A stretch of DNA of 64,000 bases. Source: Natrinema sp. CBA1119. GTDB taxonomy: Archaea; Halobacteriota; Halobacteria; Halobacteriales; Natrialbaceae. The position numbers and the translations under genes are program-made. The notes under the pieces are model-generated. The model searched no databases. It was not told where the DNA came from and saw only the letters and a program-made list of their open reading frames with translations. Within the stretch, counting starts at the first letter, position 1; the number at the start of each line of letters is the position of its first letter. Of this stretch, positions 10,208 through 48,043 are shown piece after piece. The DNA is taken from NCBI RefSeq assembly GCF_002572525.1, contig NZ_PDBS01000001.1:3348001-3412000 (forward strand), read 5' to 3'.

Positions 10208-10363
10208 AGTGACGACGGTCGGCGATTCCCGCTCGAGCGGACGAGGGTGCCGTTCGCAAGCGGTGGGTTCATTTCCGTCGATACCCAATCACCGACCACG
10301 CGTCCCGGACCTTGCTCACGGAAGGTAGAAACTATTACTACTGTAGGTGTGAAAATCTGTCTT

Positions 10364-17081: not shown

Positions 17082-18305
17082 ATGAAGGACTTTTCGAACC
17101 ACGCGTCCGATCGACCCGCGGGACACGACGTCGAAATCACCGGGATCGAAGCGGCGGTCGTCGAGGGGAACTTCGAGTGGAACCTCGTGACGGTCCACAC
17201 GGATGCGGGCGTGACGGGAATCGGGGAAGCCTACCGTGGCGGCGGCGTTCCCGAACTGGTCGAGTACGCGAATCGATTTCTCGTCGGCGAGAATCCGCTC
17301 GATGTCGAGCGGCTGTTCCGGCGCCTCGTTCAGGAGATGTCGGGCCACGGCGGCACGACGGGGAAGGTCGTCACCGCCGCTTCCGGGATCGAAATCGCGC
17401 TGTGGGACGCCGCCGGCAAAATTCTGGATCTGCCGGTCTACCAACTGCTCGGATCGCGCTACCGCGACCGGGTCCGGATCTATTGTGACTGTCACGCCGG
17501 CGAGGCGTACGCAGTCGACGACGGCGGAGCCACGGAGTACGCCGACGCGGACGCGTATACGCCCGAGGCCTACGCCGCCGAGGCTGAGCGCGTCGTCGAC
17601 ATGGGATTTGACGCGATCAAGTTCGACCTCGACACGCCGCGGGATACCGATCCGGATCCGTACAACGGTCGCCTGACCAACGCCGCCGTGAACCACAAGG
17701 TCGCGGTCGTCGACGCCGTCCGGGATGCCGTCGGCGACGAGATCGATCTCGCCTTCGACTGCCACTGGGACTACACGGTCGAGAGCGCAAGCCGCCTGGC
17801 GCGCAAACTCGAGCCGTACGATCTGATGTGGCTCGAGGACGTCGTCCCGCCGGAGGAGACGGACGCGCAGCGCGAGGTCGCCCGGCGGACGGCGACGCCG
17901 CTCGCGACCGGCGAGAATCGGTTCCGAATTCACGAACTGAGCGACCTGATCGACGACTACGCGGTCGACGTGATAACGCCCGATCCGACGACCTGCGGTG
18001 GGCTCGCCGAGTCCAAGCGGATCGCCGAACGCGCCGAGGAACGCTATATTCCGTTCTCACCGCACAACGTTTGTAGCCCCGTTGGCACGATGGCCTGCGT
18101 CCATCTCTGTGCGGCCGTCCCCAACGCCGATGTGCTCGAGTACCACGCGCTCGCGGTCGACTGGTGGGACGACCTGCTCGTGCGCGACGAGCCGCTCATC
18201 GCGGACGGTTTCATCGACGTGCCGACCGAGCCGGGCCTGGGCATCGAACTGGACGAAGCGGTCGTCGAGGAACACGTACTGCCCGGGACCGACGGTTTCG
18301 ACTGA
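17082..18305 (+). CDS. Second mandelate racemase/enolase-family sugar-acid dehydratase
   Basis: A 407-residue paralogue of the enzyme at 10364-11602. The shared motifs are VDGNF/VEGNF, GENPLD, KFDLDTP, AFDCHWD, WLEDVVPP, TGEN and SPHN. It has an extra insertion of about 20 acidic residues near residue 145 (AYAVDDGGATEYADADAY). It probably dehydrates an aldonic acid such as xylonate or gluconate to a 2-keto-3-deoxy acid. It is transcribed alone, after a 149-bp gap. Having two related dehydratases suggests different sugar substrates. Confidence 0.8.
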   Translation: MKDFSNHASDRPAGHDVEITGIEAAVVEGNFEWNLVTVHTDAGVTGIGEAYRGGGVPELVEYANRFLVGENPLDVERLFRRLVQEMSGHGGTTGKVVTAASGIEIALWDAAGKILDLPVYQLLGSRYRDRVRIYCDCHAGEAYAVDDGGATEYADADAYTPEAYAAEAERVVDMGFDAIKFDLDTPRDTDPDPYNGRLTNAAVNHKVAVVDAVRDAVGDEIDLAFDCHWDYTVESASRLARKLEPYDLMWLEDVVPPEETDAQREVARRTATPLATGENRFRIHELSDLIDDYAVDVITPDPTTCGGLAESKRIAERAEERYIPFSPHNVCSPVGTMACVHLCAAVPNADVLEYHALAVDWWDDLLVRDEPLIADGFIDVPTEPGLGIELDEAVVEEHVLPGTDGFD

Positions 18306-25750: not shown

Positions 25751-27370
25751 ATGCCGAGGATAGAGGAAGTCGGGGCGACCCGGCTGGATGCGAAATTCTC
25801 CGACGAACGTAACCGCAGTACTCGAAACTCACCACTCTTGCCCGTACCTCACTCCCCCGAACAGACGATAGAATCGGACCGTACAGTGCGCCTTCTCGAC
25901 ACGACGCTTCGCGACGGCGAGCAAGCCCCGGGCGTCTCGCTTTCCCCCGACGAGAAAGTCGAGATCGCTCGCTCCCTCGAGCGCGCCGGCGTCTCCGTCA
26001 TCGAAGCCGGCAGCGCCTGTACCGGTGCGGGTGAGCGACAGGCCATCTCGCGGGTGACCGACCTCGATCTGGACGCCCGCGTCACCAGCTTCTGTCGCGG
26101 AATTACGAACGACATCGACCTCGCGCTCGAGTGCGGCGTCGACGGCGTCCACATCGTCGTCCCCGCGAGCGACCGCCACGTCGAGGGCAAGGTCGGTACT
26201 TCTCGCGCGGACAATCTCGAGAAGACCGCCGAACTCGTCGCCTACGCGAAAGACCACGGCCTCTGGGTCGAGGTCATCGGCGAGGACGGCTCCCGGGCCG
26301 ACCTCGACTACCTCGAGGAACTGGCGGAGGCATCCCTCGAGGCGGGCGCGGATCGCTTCTGCTTCGCGGATACCGTCGGCCACACCGGGCCGGAACATAC
26401 CCACGAGGCCGTCTCTCGGCTCGCCGAACTCGGGCCCGTCAGCGCGCACACGCACGACGACCTCGGCCTGGGGGTGACCAACGCGCTCGCGGCCGTTTCG
26501 GCCGGTGCCGACCTCGTTCACTGCACCGTCAACGGACTGGGCGAGCGCGCCGGCAACGTCGCCCTCGAGGAGGTCGCGATCGCGCTCTCACACGTGTACG
26601 ACCTCGAAACGCTCGAACTCGAGGGGCTGTACGACCTCGCACAGATCGTCTCGCGGGCGACGGGCGTTCAGCTCCCGCCGAACAAGGCCGTCATCGGCGA
26701 GAACGCCTTCACCCACGAGAGCGGCATCCACACCGACGGCACGCTCAAGGACGACAAGATGTACGAGCCCTACGCGCCCGAGACCGTCGGCCGGGAGCGC
26801 CGACTCGCACTCGGTAAGCATACCGGTCGCGCAGGTGTCGCGGCGACGCTCGAGGAACACGGCGTCGATGCCGACGACGACGAGGTCGCCGAAATCGCGA
26901 CCCGCGTGACGGAACTCGGCGATCGCGGCCGCAGAGTCACGGACGCCGATCTGTTGGCCATCGCCGAGGACGTCACCGGCGAGGACCGCGAGCGCGTCGT
27001 CGACCTGCTCGATCTCACCGCCACCAGCGGCGGCGCGGTCCCGACCGCCAGTATCCGACTCGACGTCGACGGCGAGGAGCGCGTCGCCAGCGGTACCGGC
27101 TCCGGGCCCGTCGACGCCGCCGTCTCCGCCGTCCGCGAGGCGCTGGGCTCGATGGCCGACGCCGAACTCGAGTCCTATCACGTCGACGCGGTCACGGGCG
27201 GCACCGATGCCGTCGTTACCGTCGAGGTGACGATGGCGCGCAATGATCGTTCGGTGACGGTCGCTCGAAGCGAAGCCGACATCACCCGTGCGAGCGTGAA
27301 AGCGATGGTCGATGCGCTGGATCGACTGCTTGCGGCCGACCAGCAGCCGCTCGTACCGGCCGACGACTGA
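25751..27370 (+). CDS. 2-isopropylmalate synthase / (R)-citramalate synthase family protein
   Basis: A 539-residue enzyme from the ATG at 25751; the first 45 residues are poorly conserved in character, so the true start may be internal. The HMGL-like TIM barrel starts at LLDTTLRDGEQAPG. SAHTHDDLGLG provides the metal His pair and GLGERAGN is the usual loop. GKHTGRAG and the C-terminal LeuA-dimer regulatory domain (about 425-535) follow. It condenses acetyl-CoA with a 2-oxo acid for leucine or isoleucine synthesis; the sequence does not separate LeuA from CimA. No leucine operon is adjacent. Confidence 0.9.
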   Translation: MPRIEEVGATRLDAKFSDERNRSTRNSPLLPVPHSPEQTIESDRTVRLLDTTLRDGEQAPGVSLSPDEKVEIARSLERAGVSVIEAGSACTGAGERQAISRVTDLDLDARVTSFCRGITNDIDLALECGVDGVHIVVPASDRHVEGKVGTSRADNLEKTAELVAYAKDHGLWVEVIGEDGSRADLDYLEELAEASLEAGADRFCFADTVGHTGPEHTHEAVSRLAELGPVSAHTHDDLGLGVTNALAAVSAGADLVHCTVNGLGERAGNVALEEVAIALSHVYDLETLELEGLYDLAQIVSRATGVQLPPNKAVIGENAFTHESGIHTDGTLKDDKMYEPYAPETVGRERRLALGKHTGRAGVAATLEEHGVDADDDEVAEIATRVTELGDRGRRVTDADLLAIAEDVTGEDRERVVDLLDLTATSGGAVPTASIRLDVDGEERVASGTGSGPVDAAVSAVREALGSMADAELESYHVDAVTGGTDAVVTVEVTMARNDRSVTVARSEADITRASVKAMVDALDRLLAADQQPLVPADD

Positions 27371-27701
27371 CCGGGAGCGAGTCGGCTGGCGATTGAGCAA
27401 CTCGTTTTTCACGATTCGGACGAGCAATTGGAGCGGCGCCGCCTGGCCGATCGCGGTCAGCCTGCCGAAAGGGATCGCTGACGACGTTCCACGAATCGAA
27501 CAGGGAGACGCCCGCGAGAAACAGGGCAAGGGCGACGACGAATAGGTGAGCGACTTCGGTCGCTGAGGACGGCACACCGAGATTGAACGTCGTCGCCAGT
27601 ACGGCCGCGGCCCCGATCCAGAGTCGTCCGACGATCAGTCGCTTTCGACGGTCCCTGATCGATAATTCGGCTTGCATCGCCCAAAATATATTTAATTCCA
27701 T
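27282..27701 (-). CDS. Small membrane protein, two predicted helices
   Basis: Unrecognised 139-residue reading frame starting MELNIFWAMQ. Two hydrophobic segments are visible (WIGAAAVLATTFNLGV and VAHLFVVALALFLAGVSLF, residues 28-65). The C-terminal 60 residues are basic and low in hydrophobics, and about 90 bp overlap the 3' end of the LeuA/CimA gene on the other strand. I therefore trust the N-terminal half more than the end, which may be out of frame. A second in-frame ATG is at 27677. The AT-rich region 27680-27716 is probably its promoter. Confidence 0.45.
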   Translation of the reverse strand: MELNIFWAMQAELSIRDRRKRLIVGRLWIGAAAVLATTFNLGVPSSATEVAHLFVVALALFLAGVSLFDSWNVVSDPFRQADRDRPGGAAPIARPNREKRVAQSPADSLPVSRRPVRAAAGRPQAVDPAHRPSLSRSHG

Positions 27702-27786: not shown

Positions 27787-27925
27787 TGGGGTGGGTGACT
27801 TTTCAGATGGGACTACCTACCGACTGCCTCGGCGACCGTTGCAGGGAGGAAACGGACCGACCGATGTTCGCTGGCGTACAAGTGTCAGTAGAATAGTCAT
27901 AACAAATCCGGGAATTCGTGACGGT

Positions 27926-29596
27926 ATGCTCGTGATGGAGGAAGACAATCAAGAAGATCGATCGGGAAGCGCTATCGGTGAGACATCGCGTCGTTCGTAC
28001 GTACGAATGCTCGGTGCCCTGGGTCTCGGTGGCGCTCTCAGCGGTGTCGCCGCGACGAATTCACGGAACACCGGTATCGCCGCGGCCCAGAGTCAGGAGG
28101 CCGCGACCATAGCCGTGAGCGACTCGGGAACGACGGTCGACGACGACGTGTCGCACCTCGATTTCGGAGCGTCGATTTCGGTGACCGGCACCGATACGGA
28201 CACCGTCACCGTTCGCGGCGAGACAAACCCGAACGTCGTCGACGTCCGCGACGATCTCGGCGTCGAACCCGAGGCGGACGACCTGTGGGGCGCGATCGAA
28301 GATCACTACTACTCGTTCGAGCCAACGGAACGAAACCACTGTTACAAGATTCCCGCGGGAACGTGGTACGTCGACACCGACAACGTCCACTTCGACGCCC
28401 ACGAATTTCTGGGAATCGTCGGCGAACCGTTCGCCGTCCTCGAAGTGACCGATCAGGACGTCGACCGTCTGATGACCGTTGGAACCATTGACACGTCGCT
28501 TCCGAACGCCCAGCGAACGATCCTTCGGAACGTTCAGGTCGACATCCGCGGCGAGTACGACGCCGGCATCTGTCGCTGGTTCACCTACAGGTACGGCCTC
28601 ATCGAGAACGTCTCCATGCGCGGGCAGCGCAACAAGCGGGAACCGACCTACGGTGGTGACCTCCACACGATCATGGTCGACGGGAGGTTACCGACCACGA
28701 CGAACGTCATCAGAAACTGTCACCTCGTCAACGGTGATACGTACTACGATCGGGACTCCCACTTCGGGTTCGCGATCCCCTTCGCCTCGGAGATTTACAA
28801 CAGGGGGACGAACCACTGGGAGAGTTGCAAGGCGGCGGGGTACATCTCTCACGGGTTCTACCTCTCGCACGATTCCGGTCGAAACGTTCTCTCCGACTGC
28901 CACACGCACAACTGTGCCGCCGCGCACATCCGGCTCGGAACGAACGATTCGGCACGGAACTGCCGGATCTCGATGACCGAACACCCCGGGATTCCGTGGA
29001 CTGGCCTCTGGCTCGATGACGGCGGGAACCAACGGATCGACGGACTGAACGTGACGAACGAGGTCAGGAAGGATACCGAATTGGTTCGGTTGACGCAGGA
29101 CGGTCCAGCCCGCTTGACGAACGTGTCCCTCACCGACGAGGGAACCGACGGCCGTGCCATTCGTATCGACGACAGCGGCGATGCACAGGCGGTTTTCGAT
29201 TGTTGTTCGCTGACGGATCGGACGAGCCCGTCGGTTTCCGATTACGCGGTCTCCGTCCGATCGTCGCGGGTGACGTTCACCGACTGCGAGTTCGACGTTT
29301 CGTCGCAGTCGTCAACCGATCGCCACGGACTCTTCGTCACCGACGGTGACGGCAGCATCAACCGGATCAGGATCGACGGCTGTTCGATCGATTCCGACGA
29401 CGCGAGCCTCCGGTTCGCCGAGAGCGGGGCCGATCACTCGGTCGAGAGCTCGTTCTTCGACGGGCTCGTCATGAGCGATCCCGATACGGAACTCTCGAAC
29501 GTGCTGTGGACGGGGAACCGCCACTACGGCGAAACCGATTTCCGCGGTCAACAGGTGCAGTGGCAGGGCGACTTCAATTTCGGGTACGAGCTCTAG
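27926..29596 (+). CDS. Tat-exported right-handed beta-helix protein
   Basis: A 556-residue protein from the ATG at 27926; other in-frame starts exist upstream and at 27935. A twin-arginine signal (SRRSYVRMLGALGLGG) lies near residue 20-45. The mature part is repetitive beta-helix-like: short strands with Asn, Cys and Asp turns (NCHLVNGDTYYDRD, CKAAGYISHGFYLSHD, NCRISMTEHPG). This resembles parallel beta-helix (pectate-lyase-like) surface proteins, so a polysaccharide-binding or degrading role is plausible. Catalytic residues were not identified. A diverged copy of its last 75 residues lies at 31642-31869. Confidence 0.75.
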   Translation: MLVMEEDNQEDRSGSAIGETSRRSYVRMLGALGLGGALSGVAATNSRNTGIAAAQSQEAATIAVSDSGTTVDDDVSHLDFGASISVTGTDTDTVTVRGETNPNVVDVRDDLGVEPEADDLWGAIEDHYYSFEPTERNHCYKIPAGTWYVDTDNVHFDAHEFLGIVGEPFAVLEVTDQDVDRLMTVGTIDTSLPNAQRTILRNVQVDIRGEYDAGICRWFTYRYGLIENVSMRGQRNKREPTYGGDLHTIMVDGRLPTTTNVIRNCHLVNGDTYYDRDSHFGFAIPFASEIYNRGTNHWESCKAAGYISHGFYLSHDSGRNVLSDCHTHNCAAAHIRLGTNDSARNCRISMTEHPGIPWTGLWLDDGGNQRIDGLNVTNEVRKDTELVRLTQDGPARLTNVSLTDEGTDGRAIRIDDSGDAQAVFDCCSLTDRTSPSVSDYAVSVRSSRVTFTDCEFDVSSQSSTDRHGLFVTDGDGSINRIRIDGCSIDSDDASLRFAESGADHSVESSFFDGLVMSDPDTELSNVLWTGNRHYGETDFRGQQVQWQGDFNFGYEL

Positions 29597-29809
29597 TCCC
29601 GCGCTCGCCGACCGTCGGGCATCGCCGCCGACGCGCCGCCCGCGTCCGCTCGGACCCGTCGATCGGTAATCGGGAGGGCACTGCGAGGGAGTCGACCCGC
29701 TATTGCGACGCCCCGTCGCACCGACCAGTACGGTCGAATCACCGTGAGAGATCCGCTCGACGGATTTAACTGGAGGATAATAATCCCCCTCGAGTGGCAC
29801 CACTCCGGT

Positions 29810-31615
29810 ATGCCTGGAATTACGGTTCTCGGAGAGCCGACTGCCAACGATGTCGTCGACGACGTTCTCGATTCCGTTCGGTTTACCGACGCCTATCAGC
29901 GCCACGATGTCCGGACCGATGACTCCGTCGTCGCGTACACGAAGTACGATGAGTATCCGGTATCCGTGTTCGAAACGGAGTCGTCGACGGTCGTGCTGGA
30001 AGGGTATCTCTACGGTACTGCAGACGTCGACGCGGCGGTCTCGGAAGCCGCGACGCTGGTACGGGAAGGCGACACCGAGGCGCTCTCGGAGTGGGTGGCC
30101 GCCAGAGACGGCGACTTCCTGCTCCTCGTTATCGACGACGCGGACGGAACGATGTGGGCCGTAAACGACGCGTTCGGACGACTGCCGACCTATCGCGCGA
30201 CGATCGACGGGACGACGGTCGTCACGCGCGAGCTCAAGGCCGTTCGGGAATTGGGGCGGGCACTCGGCGACGAACTCGAGCCCGACCCGATCGCTCTCGG
30301 GCAGTTGCTGCTCCTCGGCTACCCGCTCGGGACGCGAACGCTGTACGCGGGCGTCGAACGGCTTCCGCCGGGATCGTTGTTCGAGGTCGGCGCGGAGTCG
30401 GTGACGTCGACACACGAGTTCGAGTTCGACGTCCACGCGAACGGGAATCGAAGCGTCAAGGCGAACGCCCGGCGGCTCCGGGACCAATTCGTCGAAGCGT
30501 GCGAAAACCGCGCCAGCGTCTCCGAGGAAACGCTTATCTCCCTCAGCGGTGGCCTCGACTCGCGGGCGGCGATCGCCGGGTACACTCGCGTCGATGGGAC
30601 ACTGACGGCCGCGACATCGATGCGAGCCGACGGCGCGAACACTGCCGAAGTCAACGTTGCACGACAGGTAGCGAACGCGCTCGACGTTCCCTGGGAGTCG
30701 TACGTCGTCGACAGGACCGATCACCACCGCGAAGCGCTGCTCGACATGACGCAGGGAATGAACAACTTGAGCATGTCCCTGGGTCTCAACTTCGCCGAAC
30801 AGGTGTCGGTGGACCATCCCCGCGCCACGTTCATCACTGGTGACGGCGGCGACAAGGCATTTCCCGACCTGACACCGTCGAAAGACGTCGATTCGATCGA
30901 CGAACTCGTGGACGCGGTTCTCGACTATCAGCAGGTGTACTCGCTCGAGGACGTGGCTTCCCTCATCGACGCCGATCCGGATACGCTCCGCGCGTCGATC
31001 CGGGACAGACTCGTCTCGTATCCCGAATCCGACCACGACGGGAAGTTCGTTCACTTCCTCGTTCGCGAGCGCGGGTTCAACTACCTCAACACCGGCGAAG
31101 ACCGGACGCGATACTACATGTGGTCGACGACGCCGTTTTACTCCCTCCCGTTTTTCACCGAGGCGATGGCGTGTCCGCCCGAACAGAAGCGGCGGACGAA
31201 CCTCTACCGGGAGTTCCTCGCCGCGCTCGATCGGAACACCCTCGACGTCGAGTACGTCGATTACGGCGCGCCAATCAATTCCCTCGAGTACCGCGTCAAA
31301 CACGCCGGCTACGAGTGGCTGTCCGAGCACCCCGAACTCAAGAAACGGGTCTTCCAGATGCTGGGGCGAGGCGGCGGCTCGTCCGGACAACCACCGACTG
31401 CCCTCGTCGACGCGACGAGCAAACCCGACGAGTTGGCCAGCCCGTTCTCGAGCGAGGCGGTCCGGCGAATCACCTGGTCGCAGGGCGGCTACAACACCCA
31501 CCAGCAGTACCTCCTGCTGACGCTCGTCGCGGCCCTCTCTCAGGACGCTGCCGAGCCCGAGTCAGCAGTCGCCGATCGCGAGTGGTCCAGTCCCGCGACG
31601 ATCAACCAGTCGTAA
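29810..31615 (+). CDS. Asparagine-synthetase-like enzyme without glutaminase cysteine
   Basis: A 601-residue protein from the ATG at 29810. The N-terminal half looks like the class II glutamine amidotransferase fold (LEGYLYGTADVD, DGDFLLLVIDD, VNDAFGRLPTYRAT), but the start is MPGIT, so the Cys2 nucleophile of AsnB is replaced by Pro. The synthetase half has the ATP-pyrophosphatase motif SLSGGLDSRAA near residue 245 and GDGGDKAFPDL. It probably uses free ammonia or another nucleophile, like beta-lactam synthetases or lasso-peptide cyclases. The substrate is unknown; it sits 214 bp after the beta-helix gene. Confidence 0.82.
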   Translation: MPGITVLGEPTANDVVDDVLDSVRFTDAYQRHDVRTDDSVVAYTKYDEYPVSVFETESSTVVLEGYLYGTADVDAAVSEAATLVREGDTEALSEWVAARDGDFLLLVIDDADGTMWAVNDAFGRLPTYRATIDGTTVVTRELKAVRELGRALGDELEPDPIALGQLLLLGYPLGTRTLYAGVERLPPGSLFEVGAESVTSTHEFEFDVHANGNRSVKANARRLRDQFVEACENRASVSEETLISLSGGLDSRAAIAGYTRVDGTLTAATSMRADGANTAEVNVARQVANALDVPWESYVVDRTDHHREALLDMTQGMNNLSMSLGLNFAEQVSVDHPRATFITGDGGDKAFPDLTPSKDVDSIDELVDAVLDYQQVYSLEDVASLIDADPDTLRASIRDRLVSYPESDHDGKFVHFLVRERGFNYLNTGEDRTRYYMWSTTPFYSLPFFTEAMACPPEQKRRTNLYREFLAALDRNTLDVEYVDYGAPINSLEYRVKHAGYEWLSEHPELKKRVFQMLGRGGGSSGQPPTALVDATSKPDELASPFSSEAVRRITWSQGGYNTHQQYLLLTLVAALSQDAAEPESAVADREWSSPATINQS

Positions 31616-31641
31616 CGCCACCTGCCACCCGTCTGCCGGCG

Positions 31642-31869
31642 AGGCTCGATAGCTATACGATCGACGCCGACGGCGCGAGCCTCCGGTTCGCCGAGAGCGG
31701 TGCGGATCGCTCCGTCGAAAGCTCGTTCTTCGGGGGAGTCGTGATGAGCGGCCTCGAGACGACGCTCTCGTCGGTGCTGTGGGTTGGCAATCGGCATTAC
31801 GGTGAAACCGACTTCGGCGGCCGGCGGGAGGGATGGCAAGGCGACTTCAACGTCGGCTTTGACGTGTGA
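31642..31869 (+). pseudogene. Remnant of the beta-helix protein C terminus
   Basis: After the AsnB-like stop, a frame without a start codon reads 75 residues that align end to end with the last 75 of the beta-helix protein at 27926-29596 (shared SLRFAESGAD, VESSFF, GNRHYGETDF, WQGDFN). By eye about two thirds of residues are identical. It ends at a stop in the same relative position as the intact gene, so it is a 3' fragment. The reading frame is still open, suggesting fairly recent loss of the 5' part. Confidence 0.85.
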
Positions 31870-31936: not shown

Positions 31937-33598
31937 TTAGTGTGACGAATTCGACTCTTCACCCACGCCCAAGTCCACGTCTCGGTCGACGATGCTGACG
32001 GTTTCGTCGTCGAGGGCCTTCTGTCGCACGTTGAGCATGTCGACTTCCTCGTAGGACGTCGGCCCGGGAACCTGATGGGCGTTCGGTCCGGGCTGTTTTC
32101 CGAGGTAGGTGACGTTCGGATTCGTCCCGATGTCCGCGAGGAGTTCGAACTCCTCCTCGGGGGCGTCGATGTAGTCCTCGAACCGTTCCTGCGCGACGTC
32201 CTCATTGGTGGAGACCTCGACGTCTTCGGACGGCCCCTCGAACTGATCGACCGTGAGATCGAGTCTGCGAAGGGTCTCCTCGCTGGTGAGGTCGAGCCCG
32301 TGGTCCTGAAGGGCCGCCACGACATCGAGGATCGTTTGCTCTTGCTCCGGGAGGGTATCGCCCGGCGGTGCCTCCTCCTCGTACTCCACGTTCGTAAGCT
32401 GGACCGCGACTGCGAGGGCGATCGATTCCTCGGTGAGGCCGTCGACGGCCTCGGTGACCGCGTCCAGGTTCGAGTCCACTCCCTCGAGCATCCCCGGGAG
32501 TTCGTCGGGCGACGGAAGCCCCGTACTTACCCGGATTAGCGTTCGCGCTCTGGCGGGATTGTCCTGGTAGCGCTCCGGATCGCTATTCGGATTGTTCTTG
32601 TCGCCAAATTGGATGACGCTCGGCGGACAGGCCGACTCGCATGCGGTCGTCCCGACCAGTTCCTCGCCGAAGTTACCGTCTTGACGGGGCGGATCGAAGA
32701 CGCACTTCGACATGACGCCGCGGGGCGCACGGCTGCTGACCGGCCGGTCGCGGTAGTCGTAGACTGCTTCCGAATCGATCTCTTCCCGATCCACGTTGGG
32801 TTCGTCCCACTGGAAGTAGTTAACGCCGTACGGACAGGCGACCTGACAGTACCGACAACCGATGCAGACCTCGTAGTCGGTCAGTACCAGCCCGCCCCTA
32901 TCGCGGGTGTGGCGGGCTGTCGTCGGACACACCTTCTCGCAGGGCGCATCCGTACAGTGCTGGCACGGCCGGACGAGGAAGTTGAAGTCGTGAACGCTGT
33001 CGTAGTTGTCGGGTTCGGGCGACTCGACATTGCCGTCCTCGAAGGCGAGGACGTACATCCAATTGGCCCCCTGATCCCAGTTGTGCTCCGCGTTGCAGGC
33101 CGTCACACAGGAGAGACAGCCGTCGCAGTGCTCGAGGTCGATCGTCATCCCCCACTGCGTCGCGTCCTCGTCGGGTTCCACTTCCCCCGGATCTTCGACG
33201 GCCGGCTCCTCCGGTTCCTGCTGGTCGACCGCACCCCACCCGAGAGCGGCGAACCCTGCACCGGCGGCCCCCTTCTTGAGCACCTCGCGACGGGACTCGT
33301 CGCCGGTAACCGACGAGAGCAGCGATCCCGACTCCTCGTCGACGTCGTCCGGGCTGGCGATCGGTCGCCCGTCCTCGCCGAACTCCTCCATTACCTCCTC
33401 GTGATAGCGCTCGTGGAACTCCTCCTCCGAGAGGTCACCTTTCGTGACCCGCATCGCGTCTCGCCCCATCTCCATCCCGAGTTCCGTGTCGTACTCGGTG
33501 TCGTCGAGCACGTCCTCGAGGTCGTCCTGCCACGCCTCGCCGAGCGGATGAAACGTCTCGTCGTCGTCCGAAGCGTCGTCGAAACTCATCGTCCCCAC
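31937..33598 (-). CDS. Orphan 4Fe-4S ferredoxin-type electron-transfer subunit (DmsB/HybA-like)
   Basis: A 553-residue protein with four Cys clusters typical of the iron-sulfur subunit of molybdopterin oxidoreductases (CDGCLSCVTAC, CQHCTDAPCEKVCP, CIGCRYCQVACPYG, and a later pair CVFDPPR / CESACPP). A Tat-like SRREVLKKGAAGAGFAALG lies at about residue 103 after a long acidic N-terminal extension. The C-terminal 200 residues are acidic and contain no known motif. No catalytic or NrfD-type membrane subunit is next to it, so its partner must be elsewhere or it acts alone. An ATG at 33589 is an alternative start. Confidence 0.85.
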   Translation of the reverse strand: MGTMSFDDASDDDETFHPLGEAWQDDLEDVLDDTEYDTELGMEMGRDAMRVTKGDLSEEEFHERYHEEVMEEFGEDGRPIASPDDVDEESGSLLSSVTGDESRREVLKKGAAGAGFAALGWGAVDQQEPEEPAVEDPGEVEPDEDATQWGMTIDLEHCDGCLSCVTACNAEHNWDQGANWMYVLAFEDGNVESPEPDNYDSVHDFNFLVRPCQHCTDAPCEKVCPTTARHTRDRGGLVLTDYEVCIGCRYCQVACPYGVNYFQWDEPNVDREEIDSEAVYDYRDRPVSSRAPRGVMSKCVFDPPRQDGNFGEELVGTTACESACPPSVIQFGDKNNPNSDPERYQDNPARARTLIRVSTGLPSPDELPGMLEGVDSNLDAVTEAVDGLTEESIALAVAVQLTNVEYEEEAPPGDTLPEQEQTILDVVAALQDHGLDLTSEETLRRLDLTVDQFEGPSEDVEVSTNEDVAQERFEDYIDAPEEEFELLADIGTNPNVTYLGKQPGPNAHQVPGPTSYEEVDMLNVRQKALDDETVSIVDRDVDLGVGEESNSSH

Positions 33599-37631: not shown

Positions 37632-38561
37632 CTACTGGTCCGTGTATTGTGCACAGACGCGCCGAATACCTTCCTCGAAGTCGATCTGTGGTTCCCAGCC
37701 GGTCTCCGCTCGGATCTTCGACGAATCGGCGCAGGTGTCGTGGACGTAGACCGAATCTGGAATCGGGTTCTCGACGTACTCCGCTTCCACATCGGTCCCG
37801 AGTTCGTCGTTGATCATCTCGACGACGGTCTCGAAATCGTACGCCTCTCCGGTCCCCAGATTGTAGATTCCGTCGAGTTCGTGGACTGCGGCCAGCTCGA
37901 GGCCGCGAACGATATCGGAGACGTGCGTGAAGTCCCGCGTCTGGGTACCGTCGCCGTAGAGAACGGGCGACTCGCCGTCGGCGATGTCGTCGGCGAACTG
38001 GGCGATCACGTTGGCGTACTCTCCCTTGTGTTCCTCCGCGCCGCCGTAGCCCTGATACACCGAGAAAAAGCGCATGCCGGCCGCGGACATATCGTAGTGA
38101 TTCGAGAAGTATTCGCCGTAGCGTTCCCGCGCAAGCTTCGAGGCCTCGTAGCCGGTGTTGACGCTCACTGGCATGTCCTCGGGCGACGGCTCCGTCCGAC
38201 TGCCGTAGATCGACGACGTCGAGGCGTAGACCACCGTCTCGCAGCCGTCCTGCCTGGCCTGTTCGACCACGTTGACGAAGCCTTCGACGTTGACTCTGGC
38301 ACCCGTCGTGGGGTCCTCTTCGTGCATCGCGTACGACGATAGCGCCGCGAGGTGGAACACGATGTCGACGTTCGTCGGTAGATCGTCATCGAGGACACTC
38401 GCGTCGACGAATTCGACGGCATCGGACAGGTTTTCTGGCGTTCCCAGATAACAGTCGTCGACGACGGTCACGTCGTTCGACTCGGCGAGGTGGTTGGCCA
38501 GGTTCGATCCGATAAATCCCGCACCGCCGGTGACGAGGACGGTTTGCTCCTCGAGGTTCAT
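37632..38561 (-). CDS. NAD-dependent sugar nucleotide epimerase/dehydratase (GalE-like)
   Basis: A 309-residue protein from the ATG at 38559-38561; an upstream ATG at 38588 adds nine. Rossmann motif TGGAGFIGSN begins near residue 11. The catalytic Tyr-Lys pair is in TGYEASKLARE, with the preceding Ser in YASTSSIYG. This is an extended SDR acting on a UDP- or dTDP-sugar, most likely a 4-epimerase for surface-glycan precursors. The substrate is not shown by sequence. It is divergent from the MFS gene across 139 bp. Confidence 0.88.
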   Translation of the reverse strand: MNLEEQTVLVTGGAGFIGSNLANHLAESNDVTVVDDCYLGTPENLSDAVEFVDASVLDDDLPTNVDIVFHLAALSSYAMHEEDPTTGARVNVEGFVNVVEQARQDGCETVVYASTSSIYGSRTEPSPEDMPVSVNTGYEASKLARERYGEYFSNHYDMSAAGMRFFSVYQGYGGAEEHKGEYANVIAQFADDIADGESPVLYGDGTQTRDFTHVSDIVRGLELAAVHELDGIYNLGTGEAYDFETVVEMINDELGTDVEAEYVENPIPDSVYVHDTCADSSKIRAETGWEPQIDFEEGIRRVCAQYTDQ

Positions 38562-38700
38562 ACCGAAACAGCCCATTCGGTGACGCAAAGGTGTTTGGAA
38601 GTTTCCGTCCCCATGGTGGCGGGTATTCTCGGCGTCACTTCCGTCCTCGGCGGAGTCCCCCGCCGGTGGCTTAATGTGACCACATCACAAACTCAAGCTG

Positions 38701-40023
38701 GTGAAACCGCTCTCGAATCCGTACCACCGCCGATGGCTCGGCTGGTGCGTGCTCGTCTCGGGGTTCTTTCTCGTCAGCCTCCACCGATCGTCGACCGCGG
38801 TCCTTTCGGAACAGCTGATGCGCTCGTTCGAGACGACGGGGACGAGTCTCGGCTTGCTCCACTCGTCGTTTTTCTACCTCTACGCGGCGTTTCAGATCCC
38901 GGCCGGCCTGCTGACGGACCGGTACGGCGTGCGCGCGATCGCCACGGCGGGAACCGCAGCGATGAGCCTCGGGGCGCTCGCGTTCGGACTCGCGCCGACG
39001 TATGCGCTGGCGTTCCTCGGCCGGCTGCTGGTCGGGCTCGGGGCGAGCGTCCTGTTCGTCGCGGCGTTGCGGTTCTGTGCGAACTGGTTCCGCCCCGACG
39101 AGTTCGGGACGATGACGGGCGTGACCTTCAGCGTCGGCATTCTCGGCGGGCTGGCGGCGACGACGCCGCTGGCAATCGCCGCCTCGAGCGTCGGATGGCG
39201 CGGCTCAATGCTCGGACTGGGGGCGTTCGGAATCGCGGTCGCAGTCGGGATCGGCCTCTTTTCGCACGACTCGCCGTCCGACGCCGGTCTCCCGCCGATC
39301 GACGACGTTCCCGACAGACCGGACGTGACCTCGGCCGCGGCGCTGAAGCGATACGTCTCCGACGCGATCCGAGAGCCCGAGACCTGGCTGTTGGGCGTCA
39401 TGCTCTTTTTCATGACCGGCATCGGGATCACTATTTTCGGTCTGTGGGGGATTCCCTATCTCGTCCAGACCCACGACATTTCCGTGACGGAGGCGTCGGT
39501 CTACCTCCTTGTCGGAAACATCGGGGGGATGATCGGCCCGACGCTGTTCGGCTGGCTCTCGGACCGGTCGGGGAACCGGACCGGGCTCATCGTCCTCTCG
39601 ACCGTCGTTTTCGGGCTGACTTGGGGCGTCTTCGCCGCCTTCGGTACCATTCCGCTGTTGCTCGTCGGCGCGATCTTCCTCTTCTCCCGAATCCTGCGTG
39701 GCGGGATTCCGCTCGCGTTTACCGTCATCAAGGAACGCCACCCCGAGGAGGCAAGCGGGACCGTGATCGGCCTGATCAACACGATGGGATGGATCGGGGC
39801 GGCCGTCTTCCCGGTCGTCCTTGGTGCCGCACTCGACGCGTACTGGACCGGCGAGACCGTCAACGGCGCTCGCGTCTACACGGAATCCGGCTATCGCGTG
39901 GCGTTCGCCATCGCCGCGGCCGCCGGCCTGCTCTCCGCGGCCTGTGCCGTCGTGCTATCCCTCCGGACGCGAGACGAGCGCTCCCTCGAGTCAGACGCTG
40001 ACGTAGAACGCTCGACGGGGTAA
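38701..40023 (+). CDS. Major facilitator superfamily transporter
   Basis: A 440-residue membrane protein with twelve hydrophobic segments and the MFS loop motif (LLTDRYGVRAIATAG, variant of G-x-L-x-D-R-x-G-R). A matching loop in the second half reads FGWLSDRSGNRTGL. The start is GTG at 38701. It probably exports or imports a small organic molecule by proton or sodium coupling; substrate unknown. The gene is divergent from the epimerase and separate from the MaoC gene. Confidence 0.9.
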   Translation: MKPLSNPYHRRWLGWCVLVSGFFLVSLHRSSTAVLSEQLMRSFETTGTSLGLLHSSFFYLYAAFQIPAGLLTDRYGVRAIATAGTAAMSLGALAFGLAPTYALAFLGRLLVGLGASVLFVAALRFCANWFRPDEFGTMTGVTFSVGILGGLAATTPLAIAASSVGWRGSMLGLGAFGIAVAVGIGLFSHDSPSDAGLPPIDDVPDRPDVTSAAALKRYVSDAIREPETWLLGVMLFFMTGIGITIFGLWGIPYLVQTHDISVTEASVYLLVGNIGGMIGPTLFGWLSDRSGNRTGLIVLSTVVFGLTWGVFAAFGTIPLLLVGAIFLFSRILRGGIPLAFTVIKERHPEEASGTVIGLINTMGWIGAAVFPVVLGAALDAYWTGETVNGARVYTESGYRVAFAIAAAAGLLSAACAVVLSLRTRDERSLESDADVERSTG

Positions 40024-40145
40024 GCCGTTACAAGCATGGGGAACAACCGTTCGAGTTCGGCCTCACACGTTCGATCGATCCCTGTTCGCCGTCCACACTG
40101 CCTCGTCCCACAGGTTCTTGCCGATACGTAGCACACAACAGGGCA

Positions 40146-40598
40146 ATGCGTTACTACGAGGACATCGAGATCGGCGACACCGAGGAGTTCGGCGAGTATC
40201 ACGTCACGAAAGACGAGATCCTCGAGTTCGCCGAGCGGTACGACCCCCAGCCGTTCCACACCGACGAGGACGCCGCGGAGGAGTCGGCCTTCGGCGAACT
40301 GGTCGCCTCCGGATGGCACACCGCGGCGATCTGTATGCGAATGCTCGTCGACGGTCCGATACAGGATCGCGCCAGTATGGGCGCTCGCGGGGTGGACGAA
40401 CTCCGGTGGAAACAGCCCGTCAGGCCCGGCGACACGCTCTCGATCCGGACCGAAATCGTGGACAAGCGCGTCTCGGAGAGCGCTCCCGAACGGGGCTACG
40501 TCGACAGCCTCCTCGAGGGAGTCAATCAGGATGGCGATGTCGTCATCTCCTGGATCGGACTCGGCATGATCGCGCGTCGGAATCCGGGGAACGACTGA
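40146..40598 (+). CDS. MaoC-like hotdog-fold dehydratase
   Basis: A 150-residue protein with the hotdog-fold MaoC signature: FAERYDPQPFHTDEDAA (the catalytic Asp and His) and FGELVASGWHTAAICMRM. It likely hydrates a short-chain enoyl-CoA. It is six bases from the next gene (carboxymuconolactone-decarboxylase-like) and the two are probably an operon. Confidence 0.88.
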   Translation: MRYYEDIEIGDTEEFGEYHVTKDEILEFAERYDPQPFHTDEDAAEESAFGELVASGWHTAAICMRMLVDGPIQDRASMGARGVDELRWKQPVRPGDTLSIRTEIVDKRVSESAPERGYVDSLLEGVNQDGDVVISWIGLGMIARRNPGND

Positions 40599-40604
40599 GT
40601 CGCC

Positions 40605-41129
40605 ATGGCTCGCGTCCCGCTCCTCGAGGCCGCGGACCTGCCCGAGGAGTACCGGTACCTGTTCACAGAGAACGACGTGGGCGACGCCCACATCTTTCGG
40701 GCGATGGCGAACGCGCCCGAACTCATGCGGTGGTATATGCGCTACTCGACGCGCCTCTGGGACGTGCTTCCCGAGCGGGAGCGAGAGATCGTCATCCTCG
40801 CGACGGCTCGCGCCCTCGAGCACCCCTACGAGTGGCACCAGCACGTTCGACTCGGCCGCGAGGCGGGCGTCACCGATGCGGAGATCACCGCCATTACCGA
40901 CGGCGATCTCGCGGCCCTCGACGACCGGGATGGCGCACTCGTCGCCTACGCCCGCGGCGTCGCACTGGGTGATCCCCGCGATGCGGACCACGACCGGCTT
41001 CGGGCGCACTACGACGTCGGGACCGTCGTCGGCATCGCCATGCTCGTCAGCCACTACGTCGCGACGGGGCGAACGCTGGACGCCGTCGACGTCGAGCCCG
41101 AGACGGCGTTCGTCGGCTGGACGCCGTAG
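40605..41129 (+). CDS. Carboxymuconolactone decarboxylase family protein (AhpD-like)
   Basis: A 174-residue all-helical protein of the CMD/AhpD family: LPEEYRYLFTENDVGDAHIF, then EREIVILATARALEHPYEWHQHV with the conserved Glu/His region, and the YARGVALGDP segment. The redox Cys pair of AhpD is absent, so this is a CMD-type member of unknown reaction. It follows the MaoC gene by six bases and may act in the same acyl-CoA route. Confidence 0.85.
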   Translation: MARVPLLEAADLPEEYRYLFTENDVGDAHIFRAMANAPELMRWYMRYSTRLWDVLPEREREIVILATARALEHPYEWHQHVRLGREAGVTDAEITAITDGDLAALDDRDGALVAYARGVALGDPRDADHDRLRAHYDVGTVVGIAMLVSHYVATGRTLDAVDVEPETAFVGWTP

Positions 41130-41282
41130 CCCGCGTTCACCGCACAACTCGAGGTGGCCAGAATATCGTCGGTCATCGGCTCGAGGTCGGCGAAGCCGAA
41201 CCACCCCGCTTCGTTCGCGTCGGGGAGCGACGGTGGACGAACCACAAAGCGTATTTCACTGCTCCCGAACCTCCGAGCAACG

Positions 41283-41639
41283 GTGACTCGAACGGAACTC
41301 GGTTCCGACGAATCGGACCGCAACGTCGCTGAATCCGGCCGGGACGATCGGCCGCTCCTCGAGTCACGACGCCGCCGATTGATCGCCTACTGCCGGCACA
41401 ACGGGGAACGAATCTGTCGCGATACGGCTGTACTCGTCGCCTGGGCGCTGGTGATGACGATCTGGATACAGGGGTTCGGCCTGCCGCGCTGGCTGTGTTA
41501 CGTCGTTACCTTCGTGGGTGTCGTCGGCTACACGCAGGCGACGACCTCGTGGACGCGTCCGTACGTGAGCCCCGACGATTTCGGGGGGCGATCCGCGGAC
41601 GGGCGACCGTTACAGAAACCGGAGCAACGGCACGAGTAG
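41283..41639 (+). CDS. Small haloarchaeal membrane protein
   Basis: Unrecognised protein of 118 residues from GTG 41283 (MTRTELG). A hydrophobic segment (LVAWALVMTIWIQGFGL, followed by WLCYVVTFVGVVGY) suggests two membrane helices around residues 50-85. It overlaps the end of the opposite-strand gene by 30 bp, so the two are convergent. Longer in-frame starts exist from 41154, but those residues are not protein-like. Confidence 0.6.
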   Translation: MTRTELGSDESDRNVAESGRDDRPLLESRRRRLIAYCRHNGERICRDTAVLVAWALVMTIWIQGFGLPRWLCYVVTFVGVVGYTQATTSWTRPYVSPDDFGGRSADGRPLQKPEQRHE

Positions 41640-42842
41640 CGTGACGCCCCAGAGGAGCGCCCCCATTCGCACGAAGCCGTGATCCTCTGGATCGATTCGT
41701 TCCGCGTGCGACGCGCCGACGGCGATGAAGCCAAGCGCGATCGCCGTCGAGAACCGGTGGACGAAGACGGTAACCGGTAATCGAGTCACGCCCAAGGCGG
41801 TGTAATCGAGCAGGATCGCCGTCGCGAAGCCGACCGATCCGGCCGCGAAGGCCGTCGGCCGATCGAGCGGGCGGGCGAAGTAGTACGTACAGACCGGTAA
41901 TCCGACGACGAGCAGCGGGTAGAACGCGCCCGCGACGAATCGCGGATCGAGATCGCCGAGCCGAGCCTCGACGGCGATCGCGCCGAACCGGACGAAGAGG
42001 TAGAGCCCGATCAGCGCACCGGCCAGCACGAACGCGTGTCGAACGCGCGGGGAAACCAGCGCTCGAGGTTCGGTCCGCGATGTTACGTGGCCAATGAGCA
42101 TCGCGCCGGGAAGGAGCCCGAGCATCGCGAGGTGAACCGGCGGGCCACCTTCGTCGCTGTCATCGCCGGCGTCGCCGTTCAGATCGATGATCGTTATCCA
42201 GCCGTCGGAATCGAAGCCGCGGTCGTTTCCCAGATGGTCGCGCGAGACGCTCGAGACGTATCGGCGATCCATGAACTCGCGTTCGACGTATCGCTGGGAG
42301 TCCTCGGCGCTGGTGACCGTGTGGCTGAGCCGAAACCAGTCCCAGTGTTCCCGGTGGGCTTGCATCGCCGTCCACTGGTCGTCGCTGTCAGGGGACGCGT
42401 AGGCACGAATGTGGTGACGCGAGCCGAGGTACTCGCCGTCGTGTACCTGGTAGCTCTCGTCGAGCCACGTCCCGCCGGTCGGATCGTCGCCCGTGGCGAC
42501 GTAAGCGTACCGAGTCGAGCCGTCAGCGCTCCCCCAGGCCGTTTCCGTCCCGACGACGTCCTCGGCCGCCGTCGCGCTGACGTCTTCCTGTTCGGGTGCG
42601 GTTTCGTTCCAGCCGCCGCGGCTTCGCTCCTCGAGATGGCGACGCGTCTCCGCCGGATCGCCAGCGACCACCACGTTGATCGCGAGCGTCCGCTCCTCGA
42701 ACGTCGTCGCACTGCTCGTGTACGGCCACAGCGACGAATCCTCGTCCACCGTCACCAACTGCTCCTGTCGATCGACCGCGGTGTCGCTCGAGGACGATGT
42801 CGCGGTCGATCCGAGGACAAGCACGACGAGTACGAGGGCCAA
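41610..42842 (-). CDS. Haloarchaeal membrane protein with large exported domain
   Basis: A 410-residue protein. The only reasonable start is TTG at 42840-42842, because the frame above is closed by TGA after 13 further codons. A leading hydrophobic segment (LVLVVLVLGS) is followed by about 210 exported residues with HREHWDWFRLSHTVTSA and similar aromatic motifs. The C-terminal half has six hydrophobic segments. Function is not recognisable. It converges with the gene at 41283-41639 and overlaps it by 30 bp. Confidence 0.65.
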   Translation of the reverse strand: MALVLVVLVLGSTATSSSSDTAVDRQEQLVTVDEDSSLWPYTSSATTFEERTLAINVVVAGDPAETRRHLEERSRGGWNETAPEQEDVSATAAEDVVGTETAWGSADGSTRYAYVATGDDPTGGTWLDESYQVHDGEYLGSRHHIRAYASPDSDDQWTAMQAHREHWDWFRLSHTVTSAEDSQRYVEREFMDRRYVSSVSRDHLGNDRGFDSDGWITIIDLNGDAGDDSDEGGPPVHLAMLGLLPGAMLIGHVTSRTEPRALVSPRVRHAFVLAGALIGLYLFVRFGAIAVEARLGDLDPRFVAGAFYPLLVVGLPVCTYYFARPLDRPTAFAAGSVGFATAILLDYTALGVTRLPVTVFVHRFSTAIALGFIAVGASHAERIDPEDHGFVRMGALLWGVTLLVPLLRFL

Positions 42843-43084
42843 CGCCCCCAGCGCGATCAGCGTCCGTCGATCGATGGTCGGTCACCTCCGTCGGTACGTG
42901 TTCGAGTTGACATCGTAGCGAGCGACGGGTCCGGTCCCGTCCGTTGCGTTACGTGCCACCCTGTCCGTTTCGCATATAGGTCTTCTCGTCCCTTCCGTCA
43001 GTGCTCCTATCGGTGAAATTCACGGTTTCCGATCGATCGGAAGAACCGAACGAACTGGCTGAAACTGAACTAGAACCGACCGCG

Positions 43085-44182
43085 TCAGCTCCGGTCTTCC
43101 TCGGAGAACCGCCACGGACTCTCGACGTCCGTCGCGGCCTCGTCCTTCGAGAGCGGGACGTTGTGGTAGAGCTGCTCGAGGTGATCCATCGTGTACTCGA
43201 CCGCGTAGCGTTCGACGCCCGCTCTGGTCTCGCGATCGGTCGCCAGACAGGTCTCGATGGCGTCGACCATCGACTCGAGATCGCCGTATTCGAACCGTTC
43301 GCCGTTATCGGCCCCGATCGTGTGATCGAACGGCGGAACGTCGGCGGCGGCGACGGGCGTGCCACAGGCGTTGGCTTCGAGCGTCGAGAGGCCGAGCGTG
43401 TCCGCAGTTGACGCGGTCACGAAGGTATCGATCGAGGAGTAGAAGGCAGGCAACTCCTCCCGGGGGAGGAACGATCGGATCTCGATGTTCTCCGGCGCGT
43501 CTCGCTCGAGACAGTCGCGGTAGGGACCCTCACCGACGATGACGAAGTCGTACTCCGGTAGTTCCTCGGCGGCACGCAGGATCTCGCTGACGTTTTTCTC
43601 CATGCTGAGCCGACCGCTGTAGCCGATCACCGTTCGGTCGGAGTACCACTCTCCTGCGGTCGGCTGGAAGAAGTCCATATCGATCCCCACGGGGAGCTGG
43701 ACGTGTTCGACGTTTCGATCGATCCGTTCGGTCGAAGCGGTCACCACGTCGAAGCTCTCGAGGAACGCGTTCTCGACGGGAACGTACAGTTTCGAGAGCA
43801 ATCCCGCGACCGACTCGAGTTTGACGTTCTGGTGGAAGTACTCCTCGAGCGGTGTGTGGTGCGTATAGATCGTCGGGAGGTCGTGTTTCCAGGCGTAGTA
43901 CCGTCCGAGGACGCCGATCGGTGCGGGGCCGTGGCAGTGAACGACATCGAGTTCGGGAAGCGTCGACGGCCGTCGGGTGAGGGGGATCCGATAGCCGGCG
44001 TAAAACGGGTTCGGCAGTGATTTGACCGGGACCTCGCGATCGCCGGGCTCGTAGTCGCCGTCGGGGTAGACGACGTACACCTCGTGGCCCTTTCGTTCTA
44101 ACTCCTCGCGCCAGAGCTTTATCGTGTACGTTACGCCATCGATCTCGGGGAAATAACTGTCCGTGAAGAATCCGATTTTCAT
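43085..44182 (-). CDS. Glycosyltransferase family 4
   Basis: A 365-residue GT4 glycosyltransferase with a GT-B fold. MKIGFFTDSYFPEIDG is the typical N terminus and VVHCHGPAPIG is the donor-site region. The C-terminal part has GYSGRLSMEKNVSE and the EX7E region around TLGLSTLEANACGTP. It likely adds a hexose to a membrane lipid or glycan. It begins directly after the stop of the next GT4 gene (TGA/ATG adjacent), so the two form one operon. Confidence 0.9.
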   Translation of the reverse strand: MKIGFFTDSYFPEIDGVTYTIKLWREELERKGHEVYVVYPDGDYEPGDREVPVKSLPNPFYAGYRIPLTRRPSTLPELDVVHCHGPAPIGVLGRYYAWKHDLPTIYTHHTPLEEYFHQNVKLESVAGLLSKLYVPVENAFLESFDVVTASTERIDRNVEHVQLPVGIDMDFFQPTAGEWYSDRTVIGYSGRLSMEKNVSEILRAAEELPEYDFVIVGEGPYRDCLERDAPENIEIRSFLPREELPAFYSSIDTFVTASTADTLGLSTLEANACGTPVAAADVPPFDHTIGADNGERFEYGDLESMVDAIETCLATDRETRAGVERYAVEYTMDHLEQLYHNVPLSKDEAATDVESPWRFSEEDRS

Positions 44183-45166
44183 TCAGGCCACCTCCTGGTA
44201 CAGCGACTGGTATTGCTTCGCGACCGTCTCGAGCGAGAATTCCTCGCTCCGTCCGGCCGCGTTCGATCCGAGCCGGTCCCGGAGTTCGGCGTCTGTGAGC
44301 CGCTCGAGGGCCGCCTCGAAGCCGTCGACGCCCGCCCCTGAGACCTTCAGACAGTCCTCGCCGTCCGCGAGCCACGAGAACGTCTCGATGTCGCGGACGA
44401 GCACCGGTTTCCCGGCGGCCATCGCCTCGAGCAACGCGATCCCCTCGTTTTCCTCGTGCGTGGGGAAACAGAAAATGTCACCCGCTGCGAACGCTCCGCG
44501 GATGTCGTCGATGTAGCCGGTGAACGTACAGTTCGCCGGGGAGTCCTCGATCAACCGCGTCGTCTCTCGCCCTTTCAAGGAGAGGTCCAGCGGGCCGAAC
44601 CACGCGAAATCCAGTTCGGGCAGCCGGCGGGCCAACTCGACGAACGTCTCGAGACCCTTGCGCTTGATGACGTGGCCGACGAGGAAGACGGTCGGCGATT
44701 CGAGGTCGTAGCGCTCGCGGTACTCGGCCTCGAGCGATTCGAACCCCGCGAGTTTCTCGCGGTCGACGCCGTTCGAGATGACCGTCGTCGGCGCGTCGGT
44801 GTACGTCTCGAGCAGCCGCCGGTTGTACTCCGATGGACAGACGAGCGCGTCGGCCAGTCCGTAGGCCCACCGGAGGTACGGTTTGAGCGGCCTGGCGAGC
44901 GCGTTCGTGAACCGAAAGCTCTCCCCGAAATCCTCGGCGGTCACGTGCGTGTGCGCGACAACTGGGATGTTTCGTCGCCGCGCTCGCCGCGCGTACCAGA
45001 CCGAGCGCGGTCCCATGAGGTTGCAGTGAAAGACGTCGGCCTCGAGCGTCGGCTCGGTCGTGTACGTGAGGTCCAGTCGGTCCAACATTTTCCGCTGGTG
45101 GACGACGGACTCGTGAATGCCGCCGGTGACGTGCGCTTCGAGTTCGAAGTAGTGGCTGATCTTCAT
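44183..45166 (-). CDS. Glycosyltransferase family 4
   Basis: A 327-residue GT4 enzyme. It starts MKISHYFELEAHVTGG. The Rossmann-like C-terminal half contains FLVGHVIKRKGLETF and the EX7E motif in EENEGIALLEAMAAGKPV. It is the first gene of a tight pair with the neighbour at 43085-44182, with no intergenic base. Two adjacent GT4 enzymes usually build a short oligosaccharide, here probably on a surface lipid. Confidence 0.9.
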   Translation of the reverse strand: MKISHYFELEAHVTGGIHESVVHQRKMLDRLDLTYTTEPTLEADVFHCNLMGPRSVWYARRARRRNIPVVAHTHVTAEDFGESFRFTNALARPLKPYLRWAYGLADALVCPSEYNRRLLETYTDAPTTVISNGVDREKLAGFESLEAEYRERYDLESPTVFLVGHVIKRKGLETFVELARRLPELDFAWFGPLDLSLKGRETTRLIEDSPANCTFTGYIDDIRGAFAAGDIFCFPTHEENEGIALLEAMAAGKPVLVRDIETFSWLADGEDCLKVSGAGVDGFEAALERLTDAELRDRLGSNAAGRSEEFSLETVAKQYQSLYQEVA

Positions 45167-45262
45167 ACCGGACTCCCCCTGATCGGTGCGGGTACAGTTA
45201 CCCCCTCGAGACCGTCGCCGCGAACCGGCGAGCGGTGTCCTCGTCGCTGTCCGAGCGCGGCG

Positions 45263-46123: not shown

Positions 46124-46341
46124 TAGTTGCCGCTACCTTTCGAGTCGACCTACGTATTCTTATTGGTTCCCGGAAAGTCACCAAAACCGGCCCTATTCCC
46201 CGGTACATCTCCGATATCGTCCTGCCGTGTCAGTCCGCTCGCTCGTCGAGCCGACATCTCATACGGTCTGCTGTAAGTAATTTCCGGCACAACCGCGATT
46301 CGGCCTCCGGCCGCGCCGGTAAATCGTTACAGCAAACCGTC

Positions 46342-47919: not shown

Positions 47920-48043
47920 TACTGGCCTCACTTTTCTCCACGCCAATAAATCGATTGAAGGGGAGGGCAGCCACCCGTCACGGCCGCGCTCTCCGCTCGG
48001 CGATGATCAGATGTTTCAAGGTAACTGACGATTCATACCAGCC

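Follow-up and report, generated by a model that had tools for sequence, protein, structure and literature searches.

The stretch analyzed here (the window) comprises 64,000 nt of Natrinema sp. CBA1119 (contig NZ_PDBS01000001.1, positions 3,348,001 to 3,412,000). In it, a gene for a beta-helix protein of 556 residues (BH) is followed by a gene for an AsnB-like protein of 601 residues (ASN) and by a short fragment of BH sequence (Table 1). Our comparisons indicate that BH and ASN came in as a two-gene cassette in place of the native BH gene, whose 3′ end persists as the fragment. The initial annotation of this DNA had reported that the C-terminal 75 residues of BH recur after the AsnB-like gene, about two-thirds identical and with the stop, and that ASN is thereby bracketed by related 3′ ends. 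Both statements held. By blastn, 29369-29583 and 31642-31856 form a direct repeat of 215 nt with 77% identity (E = 3e-45), which corresponds to the last ~72 BH codons, copied in the BH frame downstream of ASN. At the protein level, a whole-genome search recovered BH residues 481-555 (75 residues) at 68% identity (E = 1.4e-28) in the fragment, which is read in the same frame as BH and ends at its own stop at 31869; only BH and the fragment matched, and no third copy was found anywhere in the genome. Homology to BH begins 27-33 nt past the ASN stop. The fragment has neither a start codon nor a signal of its own, and its open reading frame (ORF) opens within the ASN gene.

Table 1. Features of the BH-ASN locus in window coordinates, with allele origins as read from sequence comparison
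Feature	Position	Strand	Evidence
LeuA-like (HMGL) synthase, left flank, native allele	25751..27370	+	Pfam HMGL-like and LeuA_dimer; 94.4% nt identity to G023
ORF for a small membrane protein (cluster c8), typical of the LeuA-BH interval	27282..27701	-	Same protein beside BH in many genomes
Recently exchanged segment, approximate: BH, ASN and first part of remnant	27900..31810	.	Identity to N. zhouii
BH, imported allele	27926..29596	+	Tat-type signal SRRSYVRMLGALGLGG; right-handed beta-helix; PF13229; own clade in BH tree
ASN, AsnB-like ligase, PP-loop SGGLDS, no N-terminal Cys (MPG...)	29810..31615	+	PF00733; family alignment
Remnant of native resident BH 3′ end	31642..31869	+	77% nt identity to BH; dS/dN to G023 native BH; downstream flank like G023
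4Fe-4S ferredoxin-type protein, right flank, native allele	31937..33598	-	Pfam Fer4 families; next gene after BH in other Natrinema

Most other BH-bearing Natrinema genomes have the order LeuA, small membrane ORF, BH, ferredoxin and PPC, with BH followed directly by the ferredoxin gene, and several other genera of the Natrialbaceae keep the LeuA-BH pair with the same neighbors. ASN follows BH at this locus only in a trio of species, namely the window genome (G000), Natrinema zhouii (G028) and a third species (G017); a peptide-pattern search of genome contigs gave N. zhouii as its sole match. Within the trio, BH and ASN are 95.5-97% identical, whereas the flanks are less similar (LeuA and PPC 89-92%, ferredoxin 78-88%). 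By flanking and housekeeping genes, the closest relative of G000 is G023 (LeuA 94.4%, PPC 94.8%, compared with ~89-92% for G028 and G017), which has no ASN and whose native BH is merely 76% identical to that of G000. This distribution bears out the initial suggestion that the genes form a cassette. Synonymous divergence (dS) within the trio was 0.07-0.12 for ASN and 0.10-0.14 for BH, 3-4 times lower than for the flanking LeuA and PPC genes (0.34-0.46). Between G000 and G023, the BH genes differed by a dS of 0.69, against a housekeeping clock of 0.20-0.22. In the BH tree, the trio sits apart on a long branch, next to nine native Natrinema sequences, and the native copy of G023 pairs with that of G027 with moderate support. 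Both BH and ASN are under purifying selection in the trio, with ratios of nonsynonymous divergence (dN) to dS of 0.13-0.22. The locus thus combines the features of horizontal replacement of a resident homolog: the same position, a foreign allele, and conflict of both dS with the flanks and the tree.

The fragment resembles the native BH of G023 (88% nt identity, dN 0.10, dS 0.27, or 0.265 to three places) more than it does the adjacent BH (76%, dS 0.91). Downstream of its stop, the G000 sequence follows that of G023, and G028 has a flank of its own. Taken together, the low dS of BH and ASN in the trio and the closeness of the fragment to the G023 gene show that an imported cassette of a divergent BH plus ASN replaced the native BH at the LeuA-BH-ferredoxin locus in three Natrinema species, that the fragment is the 3′ end of the displaced gene, and that the cassette passed between these species much later than they split. 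The initial annotation had offered two origins, a module exchanged by recombination or a second beta-helix gene mostly deleted, and each was partly right: a module was exchanged, and the gene that was mostly lost was the original resident BH. Related 3′ ends on both sides of ASN would also be left by a tandem duplication of BH in place, with decay of the second copy, insertion of ASN between the copies and no import, and decayed BH copies do occur in other genomes (G022 and G002). However, the greater likeness of the fragment to the G023 gene than to the adjacent BH, the dS of BH and ASN below that of the flanking genes, and a BH tree that contradicts vertical descent make this improbable, and we rejected in-place duplication on the dS values and the tree.

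Because the fragment is frameshifted in N. zhouii and gone in G017, it is not a functional gene. Its dN/dS to the G023 BH was 0.38, compared with 0.07-0.31 among native C termini, which matches the expectation for a decaying remnant, though ~70 codons are few. N. zhouii carries a further short BH C-terminal fragment ~20 kb from the cassette (L041, G028:C1:384327-384479), close to glycosyltransferase genes whose counterparts lie at 43085-47946 of the window. The Natrinema genomes G022 and G002 contain only decayed BH fragments, at a common but different locus with the same neighbors (L108:8411-8815 and L109:8366-8647).

Identity between G000 and G028 climbs to ~97% at ~27900 and drops to 60% or less past ~31810, inside the remnant, and the two genomes have the same junction after the ASN stop. 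The right crossover probably lies inside the fragment. The exchange is most simply read as homologous recombination that used the homologous BH 3′ ends as its right arm. The left crossover would then fall immediately upstream of BH and the right one within the region of BH 3′ homology; the remnant would thereby act as the right homology arm through which the cassette could enter other LeuA-BH-ferredoxin loci. Among haloarchaeal species, homologous replacement occurs frequently (PMC4500145). The imperfect direct repeats around ASN, and an integrase near one related ASN locus (L114), would also suit arrival of ASN on a mobile cassette that integrates site-specifically, such as a transposon or an integron-like element. 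This is very improbable, because the genes of the segment include no transposase, integrase or other recombinase, its ends carry no convincing inverted repeats, and the repeats are gene 3′ ends for which a simpler explanation is available. Base composition, which the initial annotation had proposed comparing, proved uninformative as a marker of import: the GC content of BH (0.61) and ASN (0.64) is near that of the window (0.65) and the neighboring genes, so the insert is not marked.

ASN relatives form two clades in the Natrialbaceae and are present in 50 of the 391 Halobacteria genomes sampled. Genes outside the window were called with a simple codon-score caller; loci were grouped into contexts by shared neighbors, and the linkage statistic assumes independence between contexts. 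A beta-helix gene is the immediate neighbor of ASN in 15 of 27 independent contexts (34/62 loci), compared with 3% among the more distant genes of those loci, and outside the Natrialbaceae 10 of 14 readable ASN loci are paired in this way. The initial annotation would have given up the cassette idea had the two kinds of gene never co-occurred elsewhere and the fragment had an unrelated origin in related genomes; the adjacency across the class goes against this. Its proposed search for conserved linkage had a divided outcome, in that beta-helix genes in general adjoin ASN, whereas the BH subfamily of the window gene itself was not found linked to ASN outside the trio, save for one weakly related BH-like protein in locus L118. 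The partners outside the trio belong to other subfamilies, are predicted to be exported and are profile-homologous to BH; many of their members, but not all, have Pfam beta-helix support. In the independent annotation of a Halomontanus rarus plasmid, the order is AlkP, ATP-grasp, AstE/AspA, ASN, beta-helix, beta-helix, helix-turn-helix (HTH), and on a Haloterrigena alkaliphila plasmid it is ASN, beta-helix, flippase. Other ASN neighbors include flippases, glycosyltransferases, AlkP-family, ATP-grasp and AstE/AspA-like proteins, nucleotide-sugar dehydrogenase and polysaccharide deacetylases.

If BH and ASN had simply moved together by chance, ASN hitch-hiking without a joint function, one would understand why ASN is missing beside most native BH genes and why several ASN loci lack an adjacent beta-helix gene. 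We nevertheless consider this unlikely, because the adjacency recurs in these 15 contexts, on either side of ASN and with three or more beta-helix subfamilies, and because beta-helix genes were gained beside a resident ASN at L118 and L140 and are absent from the sister loci. Within Natrinema, the BH family and ASN co-occur in 12 of 13 genomes with an intact BH, a count unmatched in other genera that may reflect shared ancestry and was not used as evidence. AstE/AspA-like (PF24827) genes lie beside ASN in L119:9630-10946 and L152:7496-8767, and one lies directly beside the native BH of another genus (L113:6843-7523), so that an amide hydrolase is linked to both halves of the pair. In several clade-A ASN loci (L120-L124), ASN shares an operon-like array with an AlkP-family protein (c13) and with an HTH_10 regulator of the bacterio-opsin-activator-like kind (c23), so the module may be separately regulated.

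The N terminus of BH has a twin-arginine motif and a hydrophobic stretch, SRRSYVRMLGALGLGGALSGVAA, and is predicted to direct export by the twin-arginine translocation (Tat) pathway; other BH sequences that include the N terminus have a similar signal. BH scored 32.1 bits against Pfam Beta_helix (PF13229; gathering cut-off 25.9), which matches all 22 BH members, and Pect-lyase_RHGA_epim matches 16 of the 22. No sequence relative of BH was found in the PDB. An AlphaFold model built from a two-sequence alignment was of low confidence (predicted local distance difference test (pLDDT) score 42), and Foldseek with this model returned nothing below E = 0.001; the weak matches, mostly to polysaccharide-acting beta-helices, were not counted as evidence.

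The likeliest start of ASN is the ATG at 29810 and not the GTG at 29744, as the MPG start is common to all clade-A relatives. ASN belongs to the Asn_synthase superfamily (PF00733, 26.1 bits, cut-off 21), with a conserved SGG(L/H)DSR motif, and fell below the cut-off for GATase_7 (23.1 bits, cut-off 25). It scored far under the cut-offs for asparagine synthetase B (TIGR01536, 61.2 against 267 bits), for WbpS/eps_aminotran_1 (TIGR03108, 53.8 against 816.9 bits), which was its second-best NCBIfam match, and for lasso-peptide cyclase (NF033535, 38.3 against 525 bits). In AsnB, Cys2 is the glutamine-hydrolyzing nucleophile. Our family alignment holds 25 members; residue 2 is Pro or Val, and never Cys, in all 24 with a complete N terminus, and SGG(L/H)DSR and TGDGG are fully or almost fully conserved. 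Glutamine hydrolysis by ASN is unlikely, because Cys2 is absent and the NCBIfam equivalogs are missed by wide margins. For an enzyme of this family, the expected chemistry would be ATP-dependent activation of a carboxylate with ammonia or another amine. The same search for relatives found two further, more distant AsnB-like proteins in this genome, which also lack the Cys. No ASN relatives were found on viral contigs, and the sole PHROG match has no assigned function.

AsnB-like enzymes that do not use glutamine occur in lasso-peptide and beta-lactam type pathways, so that ASN might make a small peptide-like product by ligase chemistry of this kind instead of modifying a glycan. The AsnB-like family of such pathways is discussed in PMC13060819. 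NCBIfam macrolactam and lasso cyclase models do match ASN weakly, but their scores lie far under the cut-offs, and the neighbors of the inspected ASN loci are glycan and surface genes; no lasso precursor or protease genes were among the named neighbors, and precursor peptides were not searched for. We regard a peptide-like product as quite unlikely.

The likeliest role of the pair, we infer, is amidation of, or amine ligation to, uronate-type groups of a surface glycan that is also the target of the exported beta-helix protein. ASN would activate a carboxylate in the cytoplasm, probably that of a uronic acid of the glycan, through its ATP-pyrophosphatase site and would couple it to ammonia or another amine. 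Outside the cell, the same glycan would be acted on by the Tat-exported BH, as a lyase, hydrolase, epimerase or binder. We give the whole explanation, replacement history together with glycan role, a probability of roughly two in three. Several observations weigh against it. A donor carrying the same BH-ASN pair was not found, and no glycan gene lies directly beside the trio locus. Twelve of the 27 contexts have no adjacent beta-helix of these families, and some ASN genes lie among housekeeping genes (gyrase, cobalamin). In most genomes BH has no adjacent ASN, and co-occurrence of this BH family with ASN at the genome level is weak outside the genus. The structure models, including that of ASN from a two-sequence alignment (pLDDT 31), are too poor for testing active sites.

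More tentatively, and at somewhat less than even odds, the pair may represent a previously undescribed haloarchaeal surface-glycan module. A Cys-less AsnB-like ligase and one or two Tat-exported beta-helix proteins would make and remodel an amidated or amino-acylated polysaccharide, joined in some loci by a sugar-transfer ATP-grasp protein and an AstE/AspA-like amidohydrolase that is also exported, and species would exchange the pair as a cassette through homologous recombination, with the beta-helix gene 3′ end as homology arm. The open literature that we searched contained nothing directly relevant to the BH-ASN pair or to haloarchaeal uronate amidation. What looked like a curious repeat can now be read as an exchange event with breakpoints and a relative age, and a gene pair spread across the class has come to light for which we found no described function. 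Should the glycan interpretation be true, small cassettes would be the form in which haloarchaea exchange enzymes that modify their surface polysaccharides, and this would bear on the diversification of their surfaces and perhaps of virus receptors. Enzymes of the Cys-less AsnB-like family are tractable, with a nitrogen donor and an acceptor that are directly assayable.

Elsewhere in the window, an epimerase, two GT4-type glycosyltransferases and sulfatase-like genes lie at 37632-48000, 6-16 kb to the right of the cassette. Two paralogous galactonate-dehydratase-like genes of the enolase superfamily, <7 kb apart, are found at 10247-11602 and 17082-18305.

Among known systems, WbpS and WbqG are AsnB-like enzymes that make uronamides in bacterial O-antigen or linking-sugar loci (PMC7468200). 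These uronate amidotransferases, with eps_aminotran_1 (TIGR03108) of XrtA/exopolysaccharide loci, resemble ASN in their AsnB-like fold family and in their glycan-assembly surroundings, which include flippase and sugar-activation genes. Unlike them, ASN lacks the N-terminal Cys of AsnB, fails the family cut-off and is paired with exported beta-helix proteins. By analogy, WbpS/WbqG would be the closest functional precedent for ASN, though it falls outside the WbpS family. Asparagine synthetase B (E. coli AsnB, 1CT9) has in common with ASN a remnant of the N-terminal nucleophile (Ntn)-like domain and a PP-loop synthase domain with SGGxDS, but ASN has no Cys2 and carries TGDGGDK in place of the GEGxDE-type motif. 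Beta-lactam synthetase (1JGT, matched weakly by the ASN profile at E = 6e-4) and lasso cyclases are likewise AsnB relatives that form amides without glutamine; in contrast to these, no antibiotic or peptide gene cluster was seen near ASN. The right-handed beta-helix lyases, hydrolases, epimerases and tailspikes that act on polysaccharides compare with BH through the Beta_helix and Pect-lyase_RHGA_epim matches of its members, whereas BH itself has no PDB sequence relative and a model of low confidence. As for the exchange, replacing horizontal transfer in haloarchaea (PMC4500145, PMC11375855) likewise swaps a gene at the same locus between conserved flanks, but here the swap added a gene and left a readable remnant at the junction.

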